Below are positions 1 to 10,344 of a stretch of 39,094 bases of DNA, one piece after another. This DNA is from an uncultured Lachnospiraceae bacterium. Lineage in GTDB: Bacteria; Bacillota; Clostridia; Lachnospirales; Lachnospiraceae. The stretch is taken from NCBI GenBank assembly GCA_947626985.1, contig CANQUG010000033.1, positions 1-39,094 of the forward strand. The letters are read 5' to 3'. The translations under genes were made by a program, and so were the position numbers. Position 1 is the stretch's first letter. Every line of letters begins with the position of its first letter. The notes beneath the pieces were generated by a model. The model did no database searches. It was given only the letters and a program-made list of their open reading frames with translations, and had not been told where the DNA came from.

Positions 1-1
1 T

Positions 2-34
2 GCCGGAAGACTGAAAAAACTGCAGAAGGCGTAA
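2..34 (+). CDS. C-terminal end of an upstream gene (partial)
   Basis: The only open phase into the left edge ends AGRLKKLQKA followed by TAA at 32-34. It has the basic, Lys-rich look of a real C-terminus and is followed directly by a strong hairpin. In many Firmicutes the gene before greA is a tRNA-dihydrouridine synthase, but ten residues cannot identify it. Confidence 0.45.
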   Translation, partial: AGRLKKLQKA

Positions 35-40
35 CACCCC

Positions 41-60
41 GGGGCGCCCATGGGCGCCCC
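41..60 (+). terminator. Perfect GC hairpin after the upstream gene
   Basis: GGGGCGCCC (41-49) and GGGCGCCCC (52-60) form a perfect 9-bp stem with almost no loop, 7 bases after a stop codon. There is no T-tract behind it, so it may act as a 3' end-protecting or weak terminating structure rather than a textbook intrinsic terminator. Confidence 0.5.
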
Positions 61-69
61 CGTATCATG

Positions 70-262
70 TCTGCCGGTAAAAAAGATTTATGAAAGGGTA
101 TGCTCTGCGGCATGCGCGGGAATGACTGTTTGCCGGTATGAGAATTTGGGAAAGAGTATGCTCTGCGATATGTGCAGGGATTTTCGTCTGCCGGTAAAAA
201 GCATTTGTGGCAGAGTATAATCTTGGGCATGCGCAGGATTTTCATCTGCCGGCGAAAGGATT
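70..262 (+). repeat. 58-60 bp degenerate tandem repeat upstream of greA
   Basis: Three full units begin with T(C/T)TGCCGG at 70, 130 and 187, and a fourth partial unit begins at 245. Each continues with an A-rich stretch, then (A/G)GTATGCTCTGCG or a variant, then a CATGCGCGGGA-like end. Periods are 60, 57 and 58 bp. Unit 3 turns the shared GTATGCT element into GTATAAT (216-221), a possible -10 box with no good -35. The array fills nearly the whole greA leader. Confidence 0.8.
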
Positions 263-283
263 TTGTAAAAGGAGAATCAAATC

Positions 284-784
284 ATGAGAGAAAAACTGAC
301 ACAAGGTGATGTGGAAAAAATTCAGCAGGAGATCGAGCACCGCAAGCTGGTCATCCGCAAGGAGGCCATCGAGGCGGTGAAGGAGGCAAGGGCCCAGGGA
401 GATTTAAGCGAGAATTTTGAATATTACGCGGCCAAGCGGCATAAAAATCAGAATGAGAGCCGCATTCGCTATCTGGAGAAAATGCTGAAGACGGCAGACA
501 TTGTGGAGGATTTCTCCAAAGCCGACGAGGTGGGGATGAACGACATCGTGGAAGTGGAATTCGAGGAGGACGGGGAGATCGAGAAGTATAAGCTGGTGAC
601 CTCCATCCGGGGCAACTCCCTGGAAAACCGGGTGAGCATCGAATCCCCCATCGGAAAGGCCCTTCTCGGGCACAAGGCCGGCGACCGTGTCCAGGTTCAG
701 GTGAACGACAGCTACAGTTATTTTCTGCTTATCCGTTCCATCGACAAAAGCGGCGGTGAGGAGGAGGAGATCAGAGGCTTCTGA
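284..784 (+). CDS. greA: Transcription elongation factor GreA
   Basis: GreA enters the secondary channel of RNA polymerase and stimulates cleavage of backtracked RNA. The 166-residue protein has the expected size. It has an N-terminal antiparallel coiled coil (about residues 1-75) whose tip carries GDLSENFEYYAA, with the two acidic residues D40 and E43 that position the catalytic Mg, and a C-terminal FKBP-like domain (80-160). GGAG at 271-274 supports the ATG at 284. The C-terminus adds an unusual acidic stretch, GGEEEEIRGF. It stands alone between a tandem-repeat leader and its own terminator; the lysS gene that often follows greA in Firmicutes is not present here, and an AT-rich island begins instead. 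Confidence 0.95.
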   Translation: MREKLTQGDVEKIQQEIEHRKLVIRKEAIEAVKEARAQGDLSENFEYYAAKRHKNQNESRIRYLEKMLKTADIVEDFSKADEVGMNDIVEVEFEEDGEIEKYKLVTSIRGNSLENRVSIESPIGKALLGHKAGDRVQVQVNDSYSYFLLIRSIDKSGGEEEEIRGF

Positions 785-853
785 GCTGCCTTATTTCAGA
801 AACATATCTGTTTTTCGACTGTGTGTCCTGGAACAGGGACCATTGAAAGGAAG

Positions 854-892
854 ACTCTCCGGTCATGCTCATCAGGAACCGGAGAGTTTTTT
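854..892 (+). terminator. Intrinsic terminator of greA
   Basis: ACTCTCCGG (854-862) pairs perfectly with CCGGAGAGT (879-887) around a 16-base loop and is followed by TTTTTT. This is a standard Rho-independent terminator and marks the left edge of the foreign-looking region. Confidence 0.9.
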
Positions 893-922
893 CAAAAAAG
901 TATCGTTGGCCGCGGTGTGGAT

Positions 923-1641
923 TTAAATCCATTGATTATTTGTGACAGACCAATACCCGGTAAATGTGCTGCCTTCCAATGACGCTGCCAAAGGCTGTTC
1001 AAGGAAAATCTTTATAGTTTTCAGCACCGTGCTGAAAGTTTCGGTTTTGATGTTGATTTTGCGGACAAAAGCCTTCCATTTCTTCTGCATTTCTGTGTCA
1101 TTATCAAAGTCCATAACCTGTTCAAAATGCTCCAGTGTAAAAGCATGTCCACGGTTGTCAAAGGTTTTACGCAGCGCTTCGGTAAGCGTTTTTCCTGTTT
1201 GGGGACAATGACGTCACCCACGCCGAAATCAATTCCAAAAGGTGTCCTTGTGTTTTTGATGTGAGCGACAATAGACGCACTGATTCCGGCGTACTTTTTT
1301 GCCGCCGCAATGGGAGTCACATCCTTGATTTCAAAGGAAATGAAATTATTGCCGGTTTCAGCTGCCATAATTTCTTCAAGCAGCGCTTTGAGCTGTACGG
1401 GTGTGTTGGGCATTTTTCTCAGCAGGAAATCGACATCAACGGTAACACGGCTGTCGAAGTTCGTGAGAGAGTAGATGAATAATCCGCCTTTCAGAACAAG
1501 ATTTTCTACATATCTGGATTTCTCTAAGCGGCGCAGGAATTCCTCCTGACAAAAGAGCTGCAGGCAGAGCTGGTAGCTTCTGCCGCTTTCCTTCGCCTTA
1601 TTTTTCAGTCTTGCCAGCACAGACGCAGCAACGTCAGCCAT
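923..1641 (-). pseudogene. abiEii: AbiEii/AbiGii-family nucleotidyltransferase toxin, internally deleted and frameshifted
   Basis: The family consists of type IV toxins that transfer nucleotides and arrest growth or phage. The first frame (from 1641) reads normally for 154 residues: KGG at 51-53 and the TVDVDF metal-binding motif at 67-72 match the nucleotidyltransferase core. At about 1180 the sequence jumps: the original frame continues with unrelated LPKRCVKPL, while the frame shifted by one gives EALRKTFDNRGHAF and a normal AbiEii C-terminus to the stop at 923. What should lie between, including the helix with the later conserved Lys/Asp residues (AEK...RxKDxYD in relatives), is missing. 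This points to a deletion of about 150-200 bp that was not a multiple of three. The start overlaps the antitoxin gene by 8 bases. The family call is firm; the exact size lost is inferred from typical length near 300 residues. Confidence 0.8.
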
Positions 1642-2260
1642 TCAGCAGCACCTCCATTACATTCATCATTTTTGCATACAGTTTCATCTTTTTTGCGTAC
1701 CAGGACAAATTGGCGAGATTTTTTCGTTCATCTGCGATATAAGCGTTTAGTGCTTTACTGAATGTCTCTCTGTCAAGTTTTGTTCGATATTTAAAGCAGT
1801 CACAGATCGTGCGCTCCCGATCATACACAGCGAGTTCCACGCCATTGAAGTTTTCAACGGATTTTCCGATTAGAAAATACTCTTTTTGAATGTAGTAGGC
1901 CTTGACTGGGAATTCCTCAATTCTGCTGACTGCCCGGGACGCCGTTCTCGGTATGGCGACAGACCAGGCGCGGGGCGCAAAATCACTGTATCCATAATGG
2001 AACAGGGCGGATTCTACGCAAACGATTCCCTGCGGCAGCAGTTTATGGAGCAACTGCTCCTCCGTGATCTGGTCACTGCCCGGGAGTTCGTAAACCCCAC
2101 GCCGAATTCGCTCGATGAAGCCTTCTTTACACAGAGCTGCAACATTATAATTCTTCAAACCTGCTGCAGCAAAGTCTGCTGTTTTGGCAATTCCGCCATT
2201 ATCTTTAATCACTTTTTGTACTAATCCCTTTTGATTCAAATAAGTACCTGCTTTCTGCAT
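1634..2260 (-). CDS. abiEi: AbiEi-type antitoxin / transcriptional regulator
   Basis: This is the antitoxin of a type IV system, which in this family represses its own promoter and counteracts the nucleotidyltransferase. The N-terminal part (KVIKDNGGIAKTADFAAAGL...) is the winged-helix domain; the rest (EEFPVKAYYI, ELAVYDRERTICDCFKYR) is the AbiEi C-terminal domain. An in-frame ATG exists at 2284, but the -10 box at 2287-2292 would put the transcript start near 2280, so the ATG at 2260 (MQKAGTYLNQKG, 208 aa) with AGGA upstream is preferred. The frame is intact although its toxin partner, with which it overlaps by 8 bases, is broken. It may survive as a plain repressor or as protection against related toxins. 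Confidence 0.85.
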   Translation of the reverse strand: MQKAGTYLNQKGLVQKVIKDNGGIAKTADFAAAGLKNYNVAALCKEGFIERIRRGVYELPGSDQITEEQLLHKLLPQGIVCVESALFHYGYSDFAPRAWSVAIPRTASRAVSRIEEFPVKAYYIQKEYFLIGKSVENFNGVELAVYDRERTICDCFKYRTKLDRETFSKALNAYIADERKNLANLSWYAKKMKLYAKMMNVMEVLLNG

Positions 2261-2286
2261 GCTGTTCTGCATTCCTGTACGCATTT

Positions 2287-2315
2287 ATTATAGCGAAAAA
2301 AAGTCTATTCTGCAA
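2287..2315 (-). promoter_or_regulatory. Promoter of the abiEi-abiEii operon
   Basis: On the minus strand TTGCAG (2310-2315) and TATAAT (2287-2292) are separated by 17 bases. The predicted transcript start lies inside the first possible start codon and so helps choose the start of abiEi. Confidence 0.75.
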
Positions 2316-2591
2316 TAATTAAACGCAAACAGTTTTTGATTTTTGCATGCAGTTAATTGAGCCTATTCAATTTTTCCAAAAGAAGAAAAAACTTTTGCTT
2401 TGGAAGAGTAGTTTTTTCAACTTTTTTGAAATTCTATCTTGATGGAATCGTCCTGAAGGCACGGTCTTGGTGAAGGGCAGGAGGAATAGTAATTGAATTT
2501 GCATAATTTTTATATTTCTCATACTGAGACAGACTAAAAGACTCTTATAATCTGATATTTCTGACAAAAACAATAGTATAAGTACTTTGTT

Positions 2592-2602
2592 TTTGTTATA
2601 AT
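2592..2602 (+). promoter_or_regulatory. Extended -10 promoter before the LytTR island
   Basis: TGTTATAAT (2594-2602) is an extended -10 element with no good -35. It faces the small frame at 2647 and the regulator gene at 2878. A second TATAAT at 2546-2551 also has only a weak -35. The stretch 2316-2590 is AT-rich and shows no gene. Confidence 0.45.
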
Positions 2603-2646
2603 GAAATTATTTACTAAAATCATCAACAAAAAGGAAGATTATACCA

Positions 2647-2851
2647 ATGAAAAACATAGCAGAAATTTTTGATGCGGCCGCAAGGTCTGGGTATGTTTCT
2701 TCTTCTTGAAGATGCGGACAGAATGTCACAGCACGAGGCATGGTTTTTTATCAGCAAGCGGCCTGAAAACCTGGAAAATTCGTTTTTAGATGCCAGAAGC
2801 AGCTTAATTTCCGGCAATCCACCGGTTTTCAGCGTACGAAGTATGAATTAA
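2647..2851 (+). pseudogene. Short leader frame or relic of a decayed gene
   Basis: An ATG at 2647 with a good AAGGAAG site (2631-2637) opens a 20-codon frame, MKNIAEIFDAAARSGYVSSS, ending at 2709. The next frame stays open over the following 140 bases and reads (F)LLLEDADRMSQHEAWFFISKRPENL up to a stop at 2851. The two frames overlap at a TTCTTCTTCTT run, a likely slippage site, so this may be one gene with a frameshift. I recognise no family. The 20-mer has no Cys or Gly-Gly leader, so it is not an obvious signalling peptide. The remainder of the gap from 2285 to 2877 holds only promoter-like elements. Confidence 0.25.
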
Positions 2852-2877
2852 TTTATGATGTATCAGGAGAAAGTAAG

Positions 2878-3594
2878 ATGTATCATGTTGGGATATGTGA
2901 TGATGAATACAACATATGCGCTGAATTGGAGAACTATATAGAAAAATATTTCAAAGCGCATTTTCTTAAAGGAATAATAGATGTATTCTTCGATGGAAAA
3001 GCTATGTCTGATTATCTGCGCCAAAATAATACGATCAATTTGCTTTTTTTAGATATTGAATTACCTGAAAACAATGGGATTGAAATAGGAAGGCTTTTAC
3101 GAGAAGAATTAGAAAATGAATCGACAGAAATTATTTATGTATCTTCTAAGACAAATTATGCGATGGAACTTTTTCAATGCAGACCTTTAGATTTTCTTGT
3201 AAAACCGATTACTTATGCAATGGTAGAGAAAATCATGGACATAGTATTAAAAAGAGATTTTATACGTCAAAAAAAGGTGTCATTTCAGATTGGTAAGGAA
3301 AACCAGACCTTTTTCGTAAAAGATATTCTATATTTCCGAAGTGATAATAAGACAATTTATATGGAAATGACATCAGGGGAAGTATACAATTTCAGAGCAA
3401 AACTGGATGATATAGAAACGAAGATTTCAGAAGATCTATTTTTGAGGATACATAAGTCTTATTTAATAAACCATGCTTATGTACAATGTTATGGGGCAGA
3501 CTGGATTCAAATGATTAATGGGCATAGAATAAGTATATCAAAATCTTATAGGATCAGTGTAAGACAAAGGCTCATGCAGATAGAACTGGGATAA
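2878..3594 (+). CDS. LytTR-family response regulator (AgrA-like)
   Basis: This is a cytoplasmic two-component regulator. Receiver domain: acidic pair D8-D9, phospho-acceptor D59 in LLFLDIELP, and conserved K109 in FLVKPI. The LytTR DNA-binding domain (about 133-235) carries the typical FxVKDILYFRSDNK and FLRIHKSYLIN segments. Length 238 aa is normal. AGGAGA (2865-2870) supports the ATG. It is followed 25 bases later by a GHKL kinase, so the two form a classic quorum- or peptide-sensing pair of the AgrAC/ComDE type. The direct repeats at 4883-4912 are its most likely binding site. Base composition is AT-rich, unlike the backbone genes. Confidence 0.92.
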   Translation: MYHVGICDDEYNICAELENYIEKYFKAHFLKGIIDVFFDGKAMSDYLRQNNTINLLFLDIELPENNGIEIGRLLREELENESTEIIYVSSKTNYAMELFQCRPLDFLVKPITYAMVEKIMDIVLKRDFIRQKKVSFQIGKENQTFFVKDILYFRSDNKTIYMEMTSGEVYNFRAKLDDIETKISEDLFLRIHKSYLINHAYVQCYGADWIQMINGHRISISKSYRISVRQRLMQIELG

Positions 3595-3619
3595 AAAATG
3601 ATAAACGGAGAAAAGATAA

Positions 3620-4876
3620 ATGCAGGTAGTACTGGGGATATTAGCGAATATTTTAAGAATATATACTATTTATCGCTTTATGGAATTATTAACTGCTTCG
3701 AAAGTAAATTCATGGAAAATAAAATTGTTAGTATATTCTGTTTTTGTATTATTGACAAGTGGAGCCTACTATCTTTTTCATAATCAAACAATTACTCTTA
3801 TAGCAAATTTGCTTGGGCTGACTTTAGTTACCTCAATATATGCAGAGGATTTGAAGAAAAAGATGATTTTTGCCATGGGGATTTATGCAATTAATGTAGT
3901 AGTTGAAAGTCTGTTTTTTTCTGTGACAGGATTATACGAAGAATATGATGAATGGACTCGTTCTATAAGGGAATGTGTGATTAGTCTGGGTATATATTTC
4001 AGTGTATTTCTTTTGGAACGTACCAGCTTAAAAAAGAAACGACAATCAGATATAAAAACTTCGGTTTGGTTTATGATGTTATGTGTGCCGGTTTTCAGCA
4101 TAGTCGAGATATTCTATATGTGGCAGGCAAATTATAATAATAAGCACTATATAAGTATAGAAATTACAGGTATTCTTATTATCAATATTGCAGTGTTTTA
4201 TTTATATGATGCACTGCAGGATTATTATAAACAAAGAACAGAAAAAGAAGAGTTTCGTATCGCAATGGAAAGTTATCGTAATCAGATTGATATTATGAAA
4301 GAATCCTGGGAGAAAATCAGGAGTCTGCGTCATGACTTAAAACTTCATGTATCTGAATTAAAGTATTTAACGACTCATCAGGATAAGAATAGAGTAATAA
4401 CATACCTGAATGAAATGGAAAAGCAGATGACTAATGAAGATGAATATGTATCTTCAGGTATACAGGAAATTGATAGTACTTTGAATTATTTATTACAGTA
4501 TGCGAGAAAAACTCTTGACGAAGTGAACATAAAAGTTGTTTTACCGGAAGAATTGGAGGTACATGGATTTACATTAAATGTTATATTAGGGAATCTGTTA
4601 AGTAACGCGATCCGAGCGGCACAGCAATCGCAATGCAAATATTTGAGCATAACTTTACATGAGAAACAGGGAATACTGTACATAAAGATTGAGAATAGTT
4701 ACTCTGGTATTATGCACATTGAAGATAAAAAACTATTATCAACTAAGCCAAATTCAGAGCTGCACGGTATCGGTTTGAAAACTGTTGAGAAGATTATTAA
4801 GGATCAGGGTGGAGATATGGAAATAAATTGGGATGAAGAGAATTTTTGTGTAAAGGTCATGTTATTTATGAAATAA
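3620..4876 (+). CDS. GHKL-domain sensor histidine kinase (AgrC-like)
   Basis: This is the membrane sensor partner of the LytTR regulator. The N-terminal 200 residues hold about six hydrophobic segments (for example 33-50, 58-74, 83-101, 118-132, 149-168, 180-197) with no extracellular domain, as in peptide sensors of the AgrC/ComD group. A coiled linker leads to the H-box SLRHDLK (phospho-His H238), then the N-box LGNLLSNAIRAA (N329) and the G-box HGIGL (382-386) of the GHKL ATPase. Length is 418 aa. GGAG at 3607-3610 supports the start. No agrB-type peptidase or cysteine-containing propeptide is visible next to it, so the ligand is unknown; it could be an external antimicrobial peptide or one made elsewhere. 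Confidence 0.9.
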   Translation: MQVVLGILANILRIYTIYRFMELLTASKVNSWKIKLLVYSVFVLLTSGAYYLFHNQTITLIANLLGLTLVTSIYAEDLKKKMIFAMGIYAINVVVESLFFSVTGLYEEYDEWTRSIRECVISLGIYFSVFLLERTSLKKKRQSDIKTSVWFMMLCVPVFSIVEIFYMWQANYNNKHYISIEITGILIINIAVFYLYDALQDYYKQRTEKEEFRIAMESYRNQIDIMKESWEKIRSLRHDLKLHVSELKYLTTHQDKNRVITYLNEMEKQMTNEDEYVSSGIQEIDSTLNYLLQYARKTLDEVNIKVVLPEELEVHGFTLNVILGNLLSNAIRAAQQSQCKYLSITLHEKQGILYIKIENSYSGIMHIEDKKLLSTKPNSELHGIGLKTVEKIIKDQGGDMEINWDEENFCVKVMLFMK

Positions 4877-4882
4877 GGTCCG

Positions 4883-4941
4883 TTTTCGCCATTTTATCAG
4901 CTATTTTCGCCAAAACAATAATCTGTACAGAAAAATATGAT
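4883..4941 (+). promoter_or_regulatory. Putative LytTR operator (9-bp direct repeats) and -10 box
   Basis: TTTTCGCCA occurs at 4883-4891 and again at 4904-4912: two identical 9-bp repeats separated by exactly 12 bases (21-bp period, same face of the helix). This is the site geometry known for AgrA, ComE and relatives. A TATGAT -10-like box follows at 4936-4941, 23 bases after the second repeat, with no good -35, as expected of an activated promoter. The downstream genes are the lipoprotein and ABC operon. The repeats are seen directly; binding is inferred. Confidence 0.6.
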
Positions 4942-4958
4942 AAAGTATCAATATAGTT

Positions 4959-4983
4959 GGGGTGCTGTTCAACACCCCTTTTT
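4959..4983 (+). terminator. Hairpin with T-tract between the kinase and lipoprotein genes
   Basis: GGGGTG (4959-4964) and CACCCC (4973-4978) enclose an 8-base loop and are followed by TTTTT. It would end transcripts from the regulator-kinase pair. It also lies only about 11 bases after the transcript start predicted from the TATGAT box, so for the downstream operon it would form a 5' hairpin. Confidence 0.6.
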
Positions 4984-5005
4984 ATATATGTGAGGTGTGA
5001 TTTTG

Positions 5006-6166
5006 ATGAGATGGGAAAAGGTACCAGGGAAATATTTGGTGATGGGAATAATACTGATAATTTCCGGATGTGAGAAAAGACCGGAAGTATCAATAAGAGA
5101 TGAAATTTCATTTGCAGATTCAGTCGTTCGTGATCGGGAGTACGAATCTGAAATGATGGGCAGTGATGAACAGGAAAATATAGCAGCCAGTATTGAAACT
5201 GAAATAGTATCAGAAATTTCAACGATGAAAATTGAAGCGCAGATAGATAATTTTCCATCTGAATGTGAAGCATTTACAGGGATTATTGAGTACAAAACAA
5301 TAAATATTGACAATGTGTACAGGATTCTTTTCGGCGATACATATAATAATCAAATAAATGATATAAGTGAAAAGGATAGTTCGGATTACGAGAAGGGAGA
5401 GAATGCAGAGACGGTTGAGTCTCATTTTTCGTCAGATGTTGAGCAGGTCGGAACATGGACTCTGATGGACAAGAATAACTGGAAAGAAATAGCGGAATTG
5501 TCCATTGATAAAAATGGAACTCTGGCATATATTAATCTGGAATTAAATGAGAAATATCCCAACAATACATCAATTAGTGTGGAACCATTAGGGGAAACGG
5601 ACGCACCTGATACAGTGTTAACCCGAAAAGAGGCAACCAATAAGTTGCTTGATATTATAAAAAAGATGGAAGGTCCGGAGATAGAAGTTATAAATTGCCT
5701 GGCGTATCAGGATGCAAATGGGAAAGGATATTATCAGCTGAGTTTTGTGCCGATGTTCCAGGGAATTGCCTTGACAAATGATTTACCTGCGTTCAGTAAT
5801 AATAGTATATCGACAATTTTCGGGAGAGCGATCATTACAGAAGACGGGCTAATGGAACTTATTGGGAATTTTATGATTGAATATAGAGGTGTAAAGAGCG
5901 CAGGAAAAATCCTCACGGATGATGAGATAGTTGAAGCATTGACTGCTTATATAAATAATGGGAGAATTATTACAACGCCTGAAGTACCGGTATATCAAAT
6001 TAAGTTTGAATACTTGACAAAGTTTATTGAGGGAGAAATAAATGTTATTCCTGTTTGGCATTTATATTTTGATGAAGAAAAGACTGGAAATGTAGATATA
6101 ACTGAATTTTTAGCAGGAGGAATAGGAATAGCCGCGAACGATGGAGAATTGGAATTTGCTTACTGA
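5006..6166 (+). CDS. Putative exported lipoprotein of unknown function
   Basis: The ATG at 5006 has TGAGGTG eight bases upstream and is preferred to an in-frame GTG at 4997, which is too close to that site. The 386-residue product starts with a short basic N-terminus, a hydrophobic stretch and the lipobox IISGC with Cys22, so it should be lipid-anchored outside the membrane. A Ser/Glu/Asp-rich linker (about 25-75) precedes a globular part with a regulatory-looking pattern of repeated beta segments. I recognise no family. It heads an operon of three permeases and an ATPase, with the first permease 17 bases away. In comparable loci such lipoproteins often act as sensors or immunity proteins against a membrane-active peptide, but nothing in the sequence proves that here. 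Confidence 0.75.
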   Translation: MRWEKVPGKYLVMGIILIISGCEKRPEVSIRDEISFADSVVRDREYESEMMGSDEQENIAASIETEIVSEISTMKIEAQIDNFPSECEAFTGIIEYKTINIDNVYRILFGDTYNNQINDISEKDSSDYEKGENAETVESHFSSDVEQVGTWTLMDKNNWKEIAELSIDKNGTLAYINLELNEKYPNNTSISVEPLGETDAPDTVLTRKEATNKLLDIIKKMEGPEIEVINCLAYQDANGKGYYQLSFVPMFQGIALTNDLPAFSNNSISTIFGRAIITEDGLMELIGNFMIEYRGVKSAGKILTDDEIVEALTAYINNGRIITTPEVPVYQIKFEYLTKFIEGEINVIPVWHLYFDEEKTGNVDITEFLAGGIGIAANDGELEFAY

Positions 6167-6183
6167 TTTTTGGAGGAAGGATA

Positions 6184-6933
6184 ATGAAAAAAATATTTGT
6201 CCTGGATATAAAGCGGGGAATCATCAATTTGGGTTGGCTTATGTCTGCATTTCTTGTGATGATTATATTGTATCGTCCATTGAGAGGCTGCTTTAGTAAT
6301 ATTGGTCTGATGCATGTACTGGAATGGGTGACGTTACCCATGGCGTTATCCGGATTTTCTGTATTTGCTGCAGTTTTTCCTGTTATGGGTTATTCGAATT
6401 CTTTTTATTATGATTTTACTACAGGATATCTTCGTTTCATATTGTCAAGAATGTCCTGGAAGAAGTATGGAGTTATGCGAATCATTTCCGTGGGGATTTC
6501 AGGAGGAACGATTTTGGCTGTTCCGTTCAGTGCTGTTTTTGTGATTTGTTATATGGTTGGTGATAAGGGGAGTTTGGCAGGACGATTATATGAGGGAACC
6601 CGGGTAGGAATATTTATAGAACAATATGGAATTATTGCAGCACTAACAGCAAAAGTGATATTAGGATTTTTGTTTGGTGCCTTATGGGCGCTGACAGGGT
6701 ACTGTGTTTCCTGTTTCATTTTAAACAAATACGCAGCACTATTATGTCCTTTTGTGCTCTATCAATTTATGTGGATTCTGTTATTTAAATTGCCTCTGTT
6801 CAATCCGATTTTCCTGATGCGGGGAGACGATTTGGATTCGTATTTCCTGTCTGGAATGATGCTGATCATTTATATCATATTAACTTGTATAATAATAATG
6901 TATATGCTTAAGAGGAGAGTACAAAATGTCTAA
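6184..6933 (+). CDS. ABC-2-like permease subunit, first of three
   Basis: The 249-residue product has six predicted membrane segments (about 16-33, 48-70, 98-122, 148-178, 183-201, 222-243) and a short cytoplasmic N-terminus (MKKIFVLDIKRGI), the layout of ABC-2 exporter permeases. GGAGGA ends six bases before the ATG. It overlaps the next permease gene by 8 bases and follows the lipoprotein by 17, so it is translated from one operon. Sequence similarity to any named permease is too weak to see by eye. Its role is inferred from topology and the ATPase encoded at the end of the operon. Confidence 0.7.
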   Translation: MKKIFVLDIKRGIINLGWLMSAFLVMIILYRPLRGCFSNIGLMHVLEWVTLPMALSGFSVFAAVFPVMGYSNSFYYDFTTGYLRFILSRMSWKKYGVMRIISVGISGGTILAVPFSAVFVICYMVGDKGSLAGRLYEGTRVGIFIEQYGIIAALTAKVILGFLFGALWALTGYCVSCFILNKYAALLCPFVLYQFMWILLFKLPLFNPIFLMRGDDLDSYFLSGMMLIIYIILTCIIIMYMLKRRVQNV

Positions 6934-7741
6934 AACTTACACTTTGTTAAAAGTTATCTGGGATAGTTTGAAGACGGATATAAGCTCAATAAAGTTGTGG
7001 ATCGGTGTTTTGACAGGAATAGTGCTGACATTGCAATATACGTCACAGTTTCTTTGGTTTTCAATGAAGATAGGTCAGCCGGTTAATGTGTTGGAACCAT
7101 TTTTCTATATATGTAATAATTTCAAAACAAGTATGTTTATATTTCCCGGATTGCTTCTTGTTTTATCGGACGCGCCATTTGCTAAATCTCGGACATTACA
7201 AGTTATATGCAGAATAACCAGAAGGATGTGGAATGTTAGTGTAGCTGCTCATATTGTTTTGCTGGCTCTGTTTTATTATGGGATTTTACTGTTATTCAGT
7301 ATAGGTATAGCGTCTTTGAACGGTTATATAGGGACGGCATGGAGTATTCCTATGGTTGAAATAGCTGCGGGAAATCAACTGGCGATGGTAAAATATAATT
7401 TATCTTTTGAAAACTATGGATATATTGCTGAAAACAGTATTGCTGCAGCAATCATGAAATCGTTTTGCGGCGTAACACTATATGGCATAACGGAAGGTCT
7501 TTTTTTATACACTTTTAACATGAATGTGAAATGGGAAGCAGGTACAGTTCTGGCAATTATTATCCATTTTTCCAGTTATATAACATTCGTTGAAAAAATG
7601 GAGAAATACTCCCTTTTAGCATACTCTATGGCAATTGGAGAAAAAACATATGCGATTTTTTTACTAATTGCAATTGTTGTATATAAGATTGCGGATATAA
7701 AATGTAAATATATAGATATACAATGTATTGGGGAAGGATAA
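6926..7741 (+). CDS. Multi-pass membrane protein, second permease-like subunit
   Basis: The 271-residue product has about six hydrophobic segments (near 22-42, 70-86, 104-128, 175-196, 203-220, 236-255). The large loop between the third and fourth (about 129-170) is probably extracellular. It begins MSKTYTLLKVIWDSLKTDI, a cytoplasmic N-terminus like that of the preceding gene, and the two genes overlap by 8 bases. GAGAG just before the ATG is a weak ribosome site, so translation is probably coupled. I do not recognise a family; lanthipeptide-immunity (LanFEG-like) permeases have this size and topology. Confidence 0.65.
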   Translation: MSKTYTLLKVIWDSLKTDISSIKLWIGVLTGIVLTLQYTSQFLWFSMKIGQPVNVLEPFFYICNNFKTSMFIFPGLLLVLSDAPFAKSRTLQVICRITRRMWNVSVAAHIVLLALFYYGILLLFSIGIASLNGYIGTAWSIPMVEIAAGNQLAMVKYNLSFENYGYIAENSIAAAIMKSFCGVTLYGITEGLFLYTFNMNVKWEAGTVLAIIIHFSSYITFVEKMEKYSLLAYSMAIGEKTYAIFLLIAIVVYKIADIKCKYIDIQCIGEG

Positions 7742-7746
7742 TAAAA

Positions 7747-8457
7747 ATGATTGATATAAAGGGCAGAATAAAGATCACATGTGCTTTAAGTTTATTTTTA
7801 GGAATATATCAGCATAAAATGTTTGCCCCTGACAGTATATTGTTGTCATTGATCGGAGGGATTGAAATTGGAAAGAAAAATGATACGGTACCATATATTG
7901 AAATGGCAGAATGGATGTTTATAATAAGTTTTTTTGTTCTGCTATCTGTAATGCAATTAAGAGAAAAAAACAGACTTTATATTTATGAAGTCATAAGATG
8001 TAGAACGTATCGCTGCTGGTGCTGGAAATTATATAAAACTGCATTCCTATATACTATATATAATATTTTGATATGTATTGTTGTTTGGTATTTCATGGAC
8101 GTCATAATAAATAGAAAAGTTTCAATTCCTATGTCAGCTATTGTATTATTTATGCTCCATCTTTTGTGCTGTACGGCAATTATATGTCAGGTGGAAAGAC
8201 TGTCTGTCAGAAATGAATTAATTTATTTACCGCTTATTGCAGAGGGCGGGTCAATATTGTCAGCATGTAAATGTAACACAGAACAAATCTGGTTTTGGGG
8301 TACCTGGGGAATGTATAATCGGAGTAATTGTGTGAATCAGCATATGGGCTTTCCGATTAACCTGATTGTTTTTTTGGAATTGGCTATTATCGTAATAAGT
8401 TTCCTGTTGAGCAGTAAAGGAGCAAATTATAATGAAATCATACATAAGGATTATTGA
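7747..8457 (+). CDS. Multi-pass membrane protein, third permease-like subunit
   Basis: The ATG at 7747, with GGAAGG nine bases upstream, is preferred over one at 7723 inside the previous gene. The 236-residue product has about five or six hydrophobic segments, the clearest near 46-66, 93-115, 123-142 and 206-222. A Cys-rich stretch (IRCRTYRCWCWK around 83-94, CKCN later) is unusual for a permease. The gene starts 5 bases after its neighbour and its end overlaps the ATPase gene by 26 bases. Three distinct permeases for one ATPase is more than the usual two. Confidence 0.6.
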   Translation: MIDIKGRIKITCALSLFLGIYQHKMFAPDSILLSLIGGIEIGKKNDTVPYIEMAEWMFIISFFVLLSVMQLREKNRLYIYEVIRCRTYRCWCWKLYKTAFLYTIYNILICIVVWYFMDVIINRKVSIPMSAIVLFMLHLLCCTAIICQVERLSVRNELIYLPLIAEGGSILSACKCNTEQIWFWGTWGMYNRSNCVNQHMGFPINLIVFLELAIIVISFLLSSKGANYNEIIHKDY

Positions 8458-9073
8458 TGTATCAAAAAGATTTAAAAATGATCTGGTATTAGATCATATT
8501 TCTCTGGATATGGAACAGGGAAAGATATATGGATTTGCAGGACGGAATGGTTCTGGTAAAACGGTACTTTTTAAATTAATATCAGGTCTTTTAAAACCAG
8601 ATAGCGGAGAAATAATTGTTGCGGGAAAGAAATTGGGAAAAGATATGGATTTTCCGGAAAATATGGGAATTATGATAGAAACGCCAGGTTTCCTGAATCA
8701 ATACAGCGCGTATAAAAATCTGGAGTATCTGGCGAAGATTCGAAATAAAATTTCTACTGATGATGTAAAAAAAGCTATAGAGATGGTAGGGTTAGACGCT
8801 AATGACAAGAAAAGGGTTGGAAAATATTCTTTGGGAATGAGACAAAGACTGGGCATTGCTCAGGCTATAATGGAGAATCCCCATTTATTGATTCTCGATG
8901 AGCCGATGAACAGTTTAGATACGGAAGGGATTAGGTTAGTAAGAGGTATATTGGAAAAGACACGTGAATATGGAGCGACTGTGTTAATATCCAGTCATTA
9001 TAAGGATGATATCGATGTTTTATGTGATTCTGTATATGAGGTGGAGAAGGGACTTTTGATAAAAGTCAGATAA
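8432..9073 (+). CDS. ABC transporter ATP-binding protein
   Basis: This is the cytoplasmic ATPase that would power the three permease-like proteins encoded just upstream; its start lies inside the last of them (26-base overlap). Walker A GRNGSGKT is at 37-44, the signature SLGMRQ at 133-138, Walker B LLILDEP at 152-158 with D-loop SLD, and the switch His is H189. All catalytic residues are present, so it should be active. At 213 residues it is short: it stops soon after the H-loop, lacking the C-terminal extension of BcrA- or drug-exporter-type ATPases. The overall pattern (YSLGMRQRLGIAQAIM) is that of the BcrA/LanF group of peptide-protection ATPases. It is the last gene of the AT-rich island. 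Confidence 0.92.
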   Translation: MKSYIRIIDVSKRFKNDLVLDHISLDMEQGKIYGFAGRNGSGKTVLFKLISGLLKPDSGEIIVAGKKLGKDMDFPENMGIMIETPGFLNQYSAYKNLEYLAKIRNKISTDDVKKAIEMVGLDANDKKRVGKYSLGMRQRLGIAQAIMENPHLLILDEPMNSLDTEGIRLVRGILEKTREYGATVLISSHYKDDIDVLCDSVYEVEKGLLIKVR

Positions 9074-9162
9074 AAATGTAAGGCCTGAATTTTGGTCCTC
9101 AGATTACTGCCGCGCCGCTGATGCTGTTGTCATGCTTTATGCCGGGGCGTCATTACTGTAAT

Positions 9163-9216
9163 TTTACATAGATTTAACATTGCTCTGTCCAAAGTTTTAC
9201 AATCCTTTCTTATAAT
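9163..9216 (+). promoter_or_regulatory. Pho-box promoter of the phosphate operon
   Basis: TTTACA (9163-9168), TTAACA (9174-9179), CTGTCC (9185-9190, degenerate) and TTTACA (9196-9201) stand at exact 11-bp intervals, each 6-mer followed by 5 spacer bases. TATAAT follows at 9211-9216. This is the arrangement of PhoP-binding sites in Bacillus-type Pho promoters (TTAACA-like direct repeats). It precedes a Na/Pi cotransporter and a PhoPR-like pair, which fits. Confidence 0.75.
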
Positions 9217-9273
9217 CGAGCCAGTTTCAGCGACAAAGATGTTCTGCAGGAATAAAACCGGAAGGAGAAGGAA

Positions 9274-10344
9274 ATGGACATATTTGGCATATTTACCCTG
9301 TTTGGCGGTCTGGCAATGTTTCTCTATGGGATGCAGGTGATGGGCGAGGGCCTGGAGAAGACTGCGGGAGGAAAACTGGAGAGCATTCTGGGCAGTCTCA
9401 CTTCCAGTCCGCTGCGGGCTGTCTTCCTGGGTGCAGGCGTTACGGCCGTGATTCAGTCCTCATCCGCCACCACAGTGATGGTGGTGGGCCTGGTAAATTC
9501 CGGGATCATGAAGCTGTCCCAGGCGGTGGGAGTGATCATGGGGGCGAATATCGGAACCACGGTTACCTCCTGGCTTCTGAGTCTCTCCGGAATCCAGAGC
9601 GGGAATTTCTTCCTCCGTCTTTTAAAGCCGGCATCCTTTTCTCCGGTTCTGGCTGTAGCCGGGATCGCGCTTCTCATGTTTCAGAAGAATGAAAAAAAGA
9701 AGGACGCGGGGAACATTCTGATGGGCTTTGCCATCCTGATGTTCGGAATGCAGACCATGAGCGGCGCGGTGGAGCCTCTGGCGGATGTGCCTCAGTTTAC
9801 CGGCATTCTTCTGAAATTTTCCAATCCCCTTCTGGGGGTTCTGGCAGGTCTGGTGCTGACCGCCGTGATCCAGTCCTCCTCCGCATCTGTGGGAATCCTG
9901 CAGGCGCTGTGCGTGACGGGAGCGGTGAGATACAGCGCGGCGCTGCCCATTATCATGGGTCAGAATATCGGAACCTGTGTGACGGCTCTCCTGTCGGCAG
10001 TGGGAGCGAATAAAAATGCCAGAAGAGCGGCTATGGTGCATCTCTATTTTAACCTGATCGGGACAACGGTTTTCATGGGAGCGTTTTATGCTCTTCACGG
10101 GCTGTTCCCCTTCGGGTTTATGGAGCAGGCGGTGAATCCGGCGCAGATTGCGGTGATCCACAGCGCCTTCAATATCTTTACAACACTTTTACTCCTTCCT
10201 TTTTCCCGGTGGCTGGAGAAACTGGCATATATCACCATTCCTGACAGCGCGGGAAACAGAAACAGGAACGAAGCCGGCGGGTCTTTGAAGTTTTTTGTAA
10301 GGAGGCTTGTTCAATCAGAGAAAAATGGCTATACTGAAAGATAA
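9274..10344 (+). CDS. Na/Pi cotransporter family protein (PNaS, NptA-like)
   Basis: This is a sodium-coupled phosphate importer of the plasma membrane. The family's inverted repeat is plain: two copies of the VIQSSSA motif (about residues 58-64 and 199-205), each followed by G-x-NIGT (ANIGTTVT, QNIGTCVT). About eight hydrophobic segments span 1-315. Most bacterial members of 500-600 residues end in a PhoU-like helical domain. This one stops at 356 aa after LEKLAYITIPDSAGNRN with a short basic tail, so the PhoU part is absent. It is the first gene behind a Pho box and is followed 28 bases later by a PhoB-type regulator. GGAAGGAGAAGG gives a strong ribosome site. Confidence 0.9.
   Translation: MDIFGIFTLFGGLAMFLYGMQVMGEGLEKTAGGKLESILGSLTSSPLRAVFLGAGVTAVIQSSSATTVMVVGLVNSGIMKLSQAVGVIMGANIGTTVTSWLLSLSGIQSGNFFLRLLKPASFSPVLAVAGIALLMFQKNEKKKDAGNILMGFAILMFGMQTMSGAVEPLADVPQFTGILLKFSNPLLGVLAGLVLTAVIQSSSASVGILQALCVTGAVRYSAALPIIMGQNIGTCVTALLSAVGANKNARRAAMVHLYFNLIGTTVFMGAFYALHGLFPFGFMEQAVNPAQIAVIHSAFNIFTTLLLLPFSRWLEKLAYITIPDSAGNRNRNEAGGSLKFFVRRLVQSEKNGYTER

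Follow-up and report, generated by a model that had tools for sequence, protein, structure and literature searches.

A seven-gene AgrAC-lipoprotein-ABC transporter operon in an uncultured Lachnospiraceae bacterium, a candidate receptor-plus-protection half of a secreted-protein system under agr control

In the self-protection of lantibiotic producers, as described in passages of PMC5786555, LanI is a surface lipoprotein, the transporter has a stand-alone ATPase, and control is by a two-component system; the cpr operons are assumed there to be evolutionarily linked to producers. On the sensing side, passages of PMC4739721 describe pneumococcal blp "cheater" strains, which lack pheromone and bacteriocin secretion and still answer a neighbor's pheromone and make immunity. 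Here we analyzed positions 1-39,094 of contig CANQUG010000033.1 (assembly GCA_947626985.1) from an uncultured Lachnospiraceae bacterium, the whole of which is called the window, and in which seven genes at 2878-9073 on the + strand encode a two-component pair, a lipoprotein, three permeases and an ATP-binding cassette (ABC) ATPase. We consider it somewhat more probable than otherwise that this operon forms the sensing and protective half of a system in which agr controls a secreted protein, with an orphan AgrC/AgrA pair overhearing neighbors and switching on immunity. No description of the seven-gene operon was found in the open-license literature searched (top results and abstract openings).

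All seven frames are open, and their order is RR-HK-LP-PA-PB-PC-NBD: an AgrA-like response regulator (RR, 2878-3594; Response_reg and LytTR in Pfam), an AgrC-like sensor kinase (HK, 3620-4876; HATPase_c_5, of the GHKL kind), a lipoprotein (LP, 5006-6166, with ATG 5006 the likely start and a lipobox read by eye), the permeases PA (6184-6933), PB (6926-7741) and PC (7747-8457, whose open reading frame begins at 7723, ATG 7747 being the likely start), and an ABC ATPase (NBD, 8432-9073; ABC_tran in Pfam). The permeases have lengths of 236 to 271 aa and, by a crude count, 6, 3 and 4 hydrophobic segments, respectively. A first-pass annotation made from the letters of this DNA had described the genes as tightly packed, similar in composition and carrying three unlike permeases per ATPase, and all of this was borne out: RR and HK are separated by 25 bp, HK and LP by 129 bp, and LP and PA by 17 bp, while PA/PB and PC/NBD overlap; GC content is 0.31 to 0.37 across the operon versus 0.53 to 0.56 in greA, the Na/Pi transporter gene and phoB; and PA, PB and PC, served by one NBD, showed no homology to one another at the profile level (HHalign probability, 0.5 to 2.5).

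Compared with LanFEG and CprABC, the NBD scored best in NCBIfam with the lantibiotic protection ATPase (TIGR03740) but missed its cut-off (185.8 versus 309.75 bits), the permeases matched no Lan model, and there are three unlike permeases instead of two of the LanE/LanG kind with six transmembrane segments (6 TM). NsrFE1E2G, in the portion of PMC5786555 that treats it, has three membrane subunits too, like PA, PB and PC; the window differs from this system, as from LanI/LanFEG and CprABC, in the YycH/I-like predicted fold of LP and in the secreted protein that its relatives carry. BceAB has a single 10-TM permease with a large extracellular domain, whereas the window has three separate permease genes. 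Pfam gave no match over cut-off for LP, PA, PB or PC, NCBIfam gave nothing for LP, PB or PC and one chance-level row for PA (E = 0.53), and no permease model of either database matched PA, PB or PC at E ≤ 1. PADLOC yielded no match at E ≤ 0.01 for RR, HK, LP or the permeases, and its 11 matches to NBD were apparently those of a generic ATPase. Neither LP nor the permeases, therefore, matched a characterized system in these three collections, a match of that kind being what the first-pass annotation had named as fatal to its reading. The NBD motifs are intact, with Glu where the Q-loop residue usually stands (GIMIETPGF), and a plasmid collection gave no match to PA.

Membership of LP in a named family was likewise rejected, as it matched none over cut-off. 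Its predicted fold resembles YycH/YycI/YpeB over most of the protein, the structural matches being headed by 5coz, YpeB, YycH and YycI, with LanI absent from the matches listed. To our knowledge, these Bacillus proteins, alike in fold to the LP model, are not lipoproteins of an ABC operon. Weak hints of the same kind came from the LPs of relatives (YycI at E = 5e-5, below cut-off, in locus L061; PepSY in 12 of 34, best E = 1e-4). Searching solved structures by sequence returned one chance-level match for the LP profile (E = 0.9) and none for the LP of L151.

The signaling genes are of the agr (AgrBDCA) type: an AgrC-type GHKL kinase (PF14501, 75.5 bits; H-box RHD intact; five hydrophobic segments by a crude count) and an AgrA-type LytTR regulator (PF04397, 58.2 bits; phosphoacceptor motif LFLDIEL intact) with a direct-repeat site. 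Over 417 aligned positions, which cover the sensor domain, HK is 36% identical to the agrBD-linked kinase of L115. Unlike agr, the window genome (97.6% complete) has no AgrB over cut-off, its one hit, inside a 326-aa frame, scoring 19.4 bits against a threshold of 23, and the linked output is a lipoprotein-ABC module. A tblastn search of window positions 1-9300 (E ≤ 0.05) found no agrB- or agrD-like stretch, the AgrD search being confined to these positions rather than genome-wide, which agrees with the earlier statement that agrB and a propeptide gene are missing from the locus. Two genomes with an SP-less operon (SP being the secreted protein introduced below), G176 and G264, have AgrB elsewhere, and no AgrB match was found in genomes G184 and G136. 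Genome G268 has eight AgrB matches over cut-off, and three of its places (C9, C3 and C33) have both PA and SP matches.

Between HK and LP lies a putative LytTR-type operator (4883-4912, + strand), TTTTCGCCA-N12-TTTTCGCCA, a perfect 9-bp direct repeat with a 12-bp spacer and copies 21 bp apart. According to passages of PMC6193735, LytTR sites mostly have a 12-bp spacer (11 or 13 bp in a minority) and often stand 10 bp before the -35 element; the window repeat shares the spacer of most such sites, and a weak -35-like CTGTAC, read by eye, begins 10 bp downstream of it. With up to three mismatches the pattern occurred once in the window, as against a mean of 0.07 in 100 shuffles (7 with one match), and genome-wide this was the sole site with no mismatch. 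With up to two mismatches there were 9 sites versus 12 for a reversed control pattern, and because the control gave more, the weaker sites are uninformative. The operator proposed by the first-pass annotation is thus present as a perfect repeat before LP, and its binding by RR is predicted.

What the window lacks was recognized from its relatives, several of which carry, just upstream of LP, a secreted beta-sandwich protein of 130 to 160 aa (SP; signal peptide read by eye), most of these SPs having a C-terminal motif of the G-W-(N/S)-(A/S/P)-D type. The order in L007, L115 and L116 is RR-HK-AgrD-AgrB-(other genes)-SP-LP-PA-PB-PC-NBD, and AgrB, AgrD and SP are present in other arrangements in L117, L042, L054 and L151. 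All nine AgrB candidates of relatives that were submitted exceeded the PF04647 cut-off, as did five of five AgrD candidates that of TIGR04223, and in these relatives agrB and agrD are neighbors of RR/HK and LP-ABC genes like those of the window. Compared with this SP-bearing agr/LP/ABC system, defined here, the window has no SP gene upstream of LP; its HK-LP gap falls where relatives carry agrB, agrD and SP. No credible SP match was found in the window genome (best E = 0.97), and a candidate remnant at 2776-2847 (tblastn, E = 0.02) was rejected as chance-level.

A profile of nine SPs identified 36 places in 30 of 397 family genomes at E ≤ 0.01, of which the 11 weakest unfetched ones are doubtful, lying mostly inside frames of 370 to 1227 aa. 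Among 13 new places that were fetched, two were cut by contig ends, and in each of the other 11 the roughly 4 kb downstream of SP contained both a PA-type permease and an NBD. The L117 SP was modeled as a confident beta-sandwich (predicted local distance difference test score, 86.1) with no specific structural relative in the PDB, and it had no PADLOC match at E ≤ 0.01. Ten SP-position proteins were submitted to Pfam, and DUF2712 was matched over cut-off in L055 and below it in L048; a control search placed DUF2712 in Bacillus subtilis as well. Elsewhere in loci of the wider family, DUF6034 was found in L058 and DUF2705, only weakly (E = 0.16), in L059. None of these three domains was matched over cut-off by a window protein, and their names were absent from the open-license literature searched; for DUF6034 (PF19499), the window LP had no match at E ≤ 1, and 2 of 34 LPs matched weakly (best E = 0.08). 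One DUF2712-type SP had no match in plasmid and phage collections. At L058:9502-9969, an SP-position secreted protein adjoining a DUF6034 lipoprotein bears PG_binding_1, a peptidoglycan-binding domain, which hints at a cell-wall action of some SPs. Some loci, namely L050, L053, L055 and L106, have repeated SP, lipoprotein-like or PA genes, copies that might fit an arms race in specificity.

Close relatives of LP are few: five proteins, the window's own included, among 5.8 billion searched, with two more added by a profile, and, counting the window genome, LP occurs in 6 and PA in 49 of the 397 family genomes. Five distant LP matches at 22 to 24% identity (L007 to L011) led to loci of the same kind, with RR-HK-LP-PA-PB-PC-NBD in L008, L009 (small genes before LP) and L010, the same seven genes interspersed with agr and SP genes in L007, and, in L011, LP-PA-PB-NBD where the contig begins. 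The LP sequence alone, used as a pattern against genome contigs, retrieved no relative. A PA alignment, applied to named genome records, retrieved 38 loci, many of them with Lachnospiraceae in the title. The window order is reproduced exactly in 24, SP-LP-PA-PB-PC-NBD stands in 4, and the other 10 are incomplete, rearranged or cut; L116, L128 and L149 are contigs of earlier loci, and L115, L129 and L148 are near-copies. Among 47 loci with PA and a linked RR/HK, 10 carried Agr and SP, 33 neither (mostly one clade), 2 Agr only (L043 and L061) and 2 SP only (L048 and L053), a count from which L116, L128 and L149 were dropped, in which L115, L129 and L148 were kept, and from which L101 and L112 were omitted for want of PA. 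L112 has SP, RR and HK without Agr, its locus being cut by a contig end.

The operator is conserved along with the genes. A direct repeat with 21- to 22-bp spacing (score of at least 12 of 16) stands upstream of LP in 28 of the 29 testable loci, namely those of the SP-less clade with HK and LP, as against 50 of 2900 shuffled stretches; the lone failure, L125, probably has a misplaced LP start, and a whole-locus scan finds a repeat scoring 13 there. In the same kind of scan by script, an exact TATAAT follows the repeat by 27 to 28 bp in 23 of 30 SP-less-clade loci, and six more have a -10 element with one mismatch. Conservation beyond this strain, on which the first-pass annotation had made its reading depend, is hence seen in both the gene order and the repeat. 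A rule-based search upstream of SP found no direct repeat in L115, L117, L042 or L054, a weak one in L044 and two perfect ones in L151, and on these results an ancestral status of the operator of SP-less loci is unsupported. In L151, from Eubacterium ramulus, the two repeats (22-bp spacing), which by eye run in opposite directions, are found 330 bp ahead of the SP gene at 4786, and the region between the divergent agr and SP operons is likely a double LytTR control region. The window also has a terminator-like hairpin with a T run between operator and LP (4959-4983, + strand), weak when taken alone (z = -1.12); because strong hairpins separate SP from LP in SP-bearing L007 and L117, it is possibly a scar.

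To place the window among these forms, a maximum-likelihood tree of 67 PA rows was rooted at its midpoint, with five duplicate or near-copy loci dropped and proteins of <200 or >330 aa excluded. The window pairs with L011 (support, 97/93), in which the SP gene ahead of LP is reduced to fragments. Their 36-row clade includes L007, L115 and L117, with SP and Agr, and L114, with neither at the locus; 30 SP-less, Agr-less rows form one clade inside it (support, 100/99), and 31 of the 35 rows other than the window have the receptor and LP-ABC half only. Farther out lie L042 and L151 with SP and Agr, L044 with SP only, L043 with Agr only, and L045 and L046 with neither. The simplest history would start from an ancestor that had both agrBD and SP, which were then lost independently in the window lineage, the 30-row clade and L114, gains being possible as well under a midpoint root. 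From these sequence comparisons, an origin of the window operon by loss of agrBD and SP is well supported. In six of seven SP-less pairs, dN/dS was 0.04 to 0.50 for all seven genes, LP being saturated in one pair; the seventh pair is near-identical (0.08 to 1.14) and too similar to judge. The kinase sensor domain gave 0.10 to 0.27 in the four of seven pairs computed. On these ratios, all seven genes of SP-less loci appear to be under purifying selection.

The operon lies in an insertion between greA and the Na/Pi transporter gene (785-9261), which is absent from the same place in five of five congeners, chosen as those with the best transporter match among 20; the gap measures 8.5 kb in the window versus 102 to 255 bp in all five. 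In the 20 congeners no PA exceeded 31% identity, distant ones occurring in four. Given the intact congener junction and the lack of a close PA, the operon was most likely gained by the window lineage. Also within the insertion is an AbiE-type pair recognized by family matches (1021-2284, - strand). Its AbiEi frame (1634-2284, - strand) matches the family over nearly its whole length; in the region 923-1641 (- strand), the AbiEii frame ends early, at 206 aa, and its family match reaches only to about halfway, with a C-terminus-like stretch at 923-1114 in another frame (by eye), and this toxin gene looks broken by a frameshift. A remnant-like 60-aa open reading frame (2669-2851) lies between AbiEi and RR. 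Beyond the operon, the Na/Pi transporter frame (9274-10344) encodes 356 aa versus 593 to 624 aa in eight congener matches (71 to 77% identity), its C-terminal part being missing before phoB.

The full relatives encode AgrB and AgrD, for a cyclic autoinducing peptide, together with AgrC and AgrA, SP, and LP-PA-PB-(PC)-NBD. Under the receptor-plus-protection reading, the orphan AgrC-like HK would detect autoinducing peptides from neighbors with such full systems, and phosphorylated RR would bind the repeat at 4883-4912 and switch on LP-PA-PB-PC-NBD. Surface LP would then capture the neighbor's SP, or sense SP damage, and the ABC complex would drive SP off the membrane, as LanI/LanFEG protects lantibiotic producers. 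We infer the ligand, the toxicity of SP and the immunity function of LP-ABC. Such a response to a foreign signal would be like that of the blp cheater strains, although there, in the relevant passages of PMC4739721, it is the transporter gene that is disrupted, whereas here agrBD and SP are absent from the 30-row clade, and named domains reveal no kinship between the gene families. The first-pass annotation had taken the locus for a device sensing peptides and affording self-protection or export: its AgrAC-like pair, operator and conserved lipoprotein-ABC set without agrBD stand, while the comparison with relatives, which carry agrB, agrD and SP, suggests the residue of a larger system more than a free-standing peptide sensor. 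Since these genes lie upstream of LP in relatives, induction would be expected from a cyclic autoinducing peptide that other cells release, and the danger to be met would be the SP family, not lanthipeptides or bacitracin. More tentatively, and with slightly more doubt than confidence, the SPs (DUF2712 and kin) could form a large undescribed class of agr-controlled secreted protein bacteriocins of gut Lachnospiraceae, with dedicated immunity from a YycH/I-fold LP and a three-permease ABC transporter, of which the window clade mostly has the eavesdropping-immunity half alone, as a stably inherited module that is island-borne at least here.

A different use of the same genes would be general sensing and detoxification of antimicrobial peptides, as in CprABC or LanFEG, with HK sensing lanthipeptides, bacitracin or host peptides, the ABC complex expelling them, and the agr ancestry being history only. 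The best-scoring ATPase family of NBD, the shared layout of lipoprotein and ABC transporter (LanI/LanFEG in passages of PMC5786555), and the SP-less form being the commonest among the 38 PA-related loci are consistent with this; yet NBD falls below the TIGR03740 cut-off, no permease model of NCBIfam fits PA, PB or PC at E ≤ 1, the alignment of HK with an agrBD-linked kinase spans the full length, and the tree neighbors L007, L115 and L117 carry SP and agrBD, and we regard it as unlikely. It is distinctly improbable that LP-ABC is an envelope or maturation machine, serving SP folding, anchoring or release, or a lipid or cell-wall task, and was kept for another substrate: SP has its own signal peptide (by eye), so that no ABC exporter is needed for it, and the module is patchy among the family genomes and lies in an insertion here. 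That the operon is a relic in decay, with no function left in this genome, is very improbable, for although the insertion is AT-rich, partners were lost, the leader has a terminator-like hairpin and the adjoining AbiEii frame looks broken, the seven frames are open, the RR, HK and NBD motifs are intact, the operator is a perfect repeat, and six LP proteins, the window's own counted, share 40 to 100% identity.

The operon is real and conserved and, by hypothesis, combines agr eavesdropping with LanI/LanFEG-like immunity; with it, the cell may be able to eavesdrop on its neighbors and withstand their weapons. If this is true, gut Lachnospiraceae would be expected to fight one another with a family of secreted proteins under quorum control, and the genes conferring protection would have been identified. 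DUF2712, DUF6034 and several unnamed permeases would receive their first function guesses, and orphan AgrC receptors would become testable eavesdroppers, each matching the autoinducing peptide of a co-resident producer.

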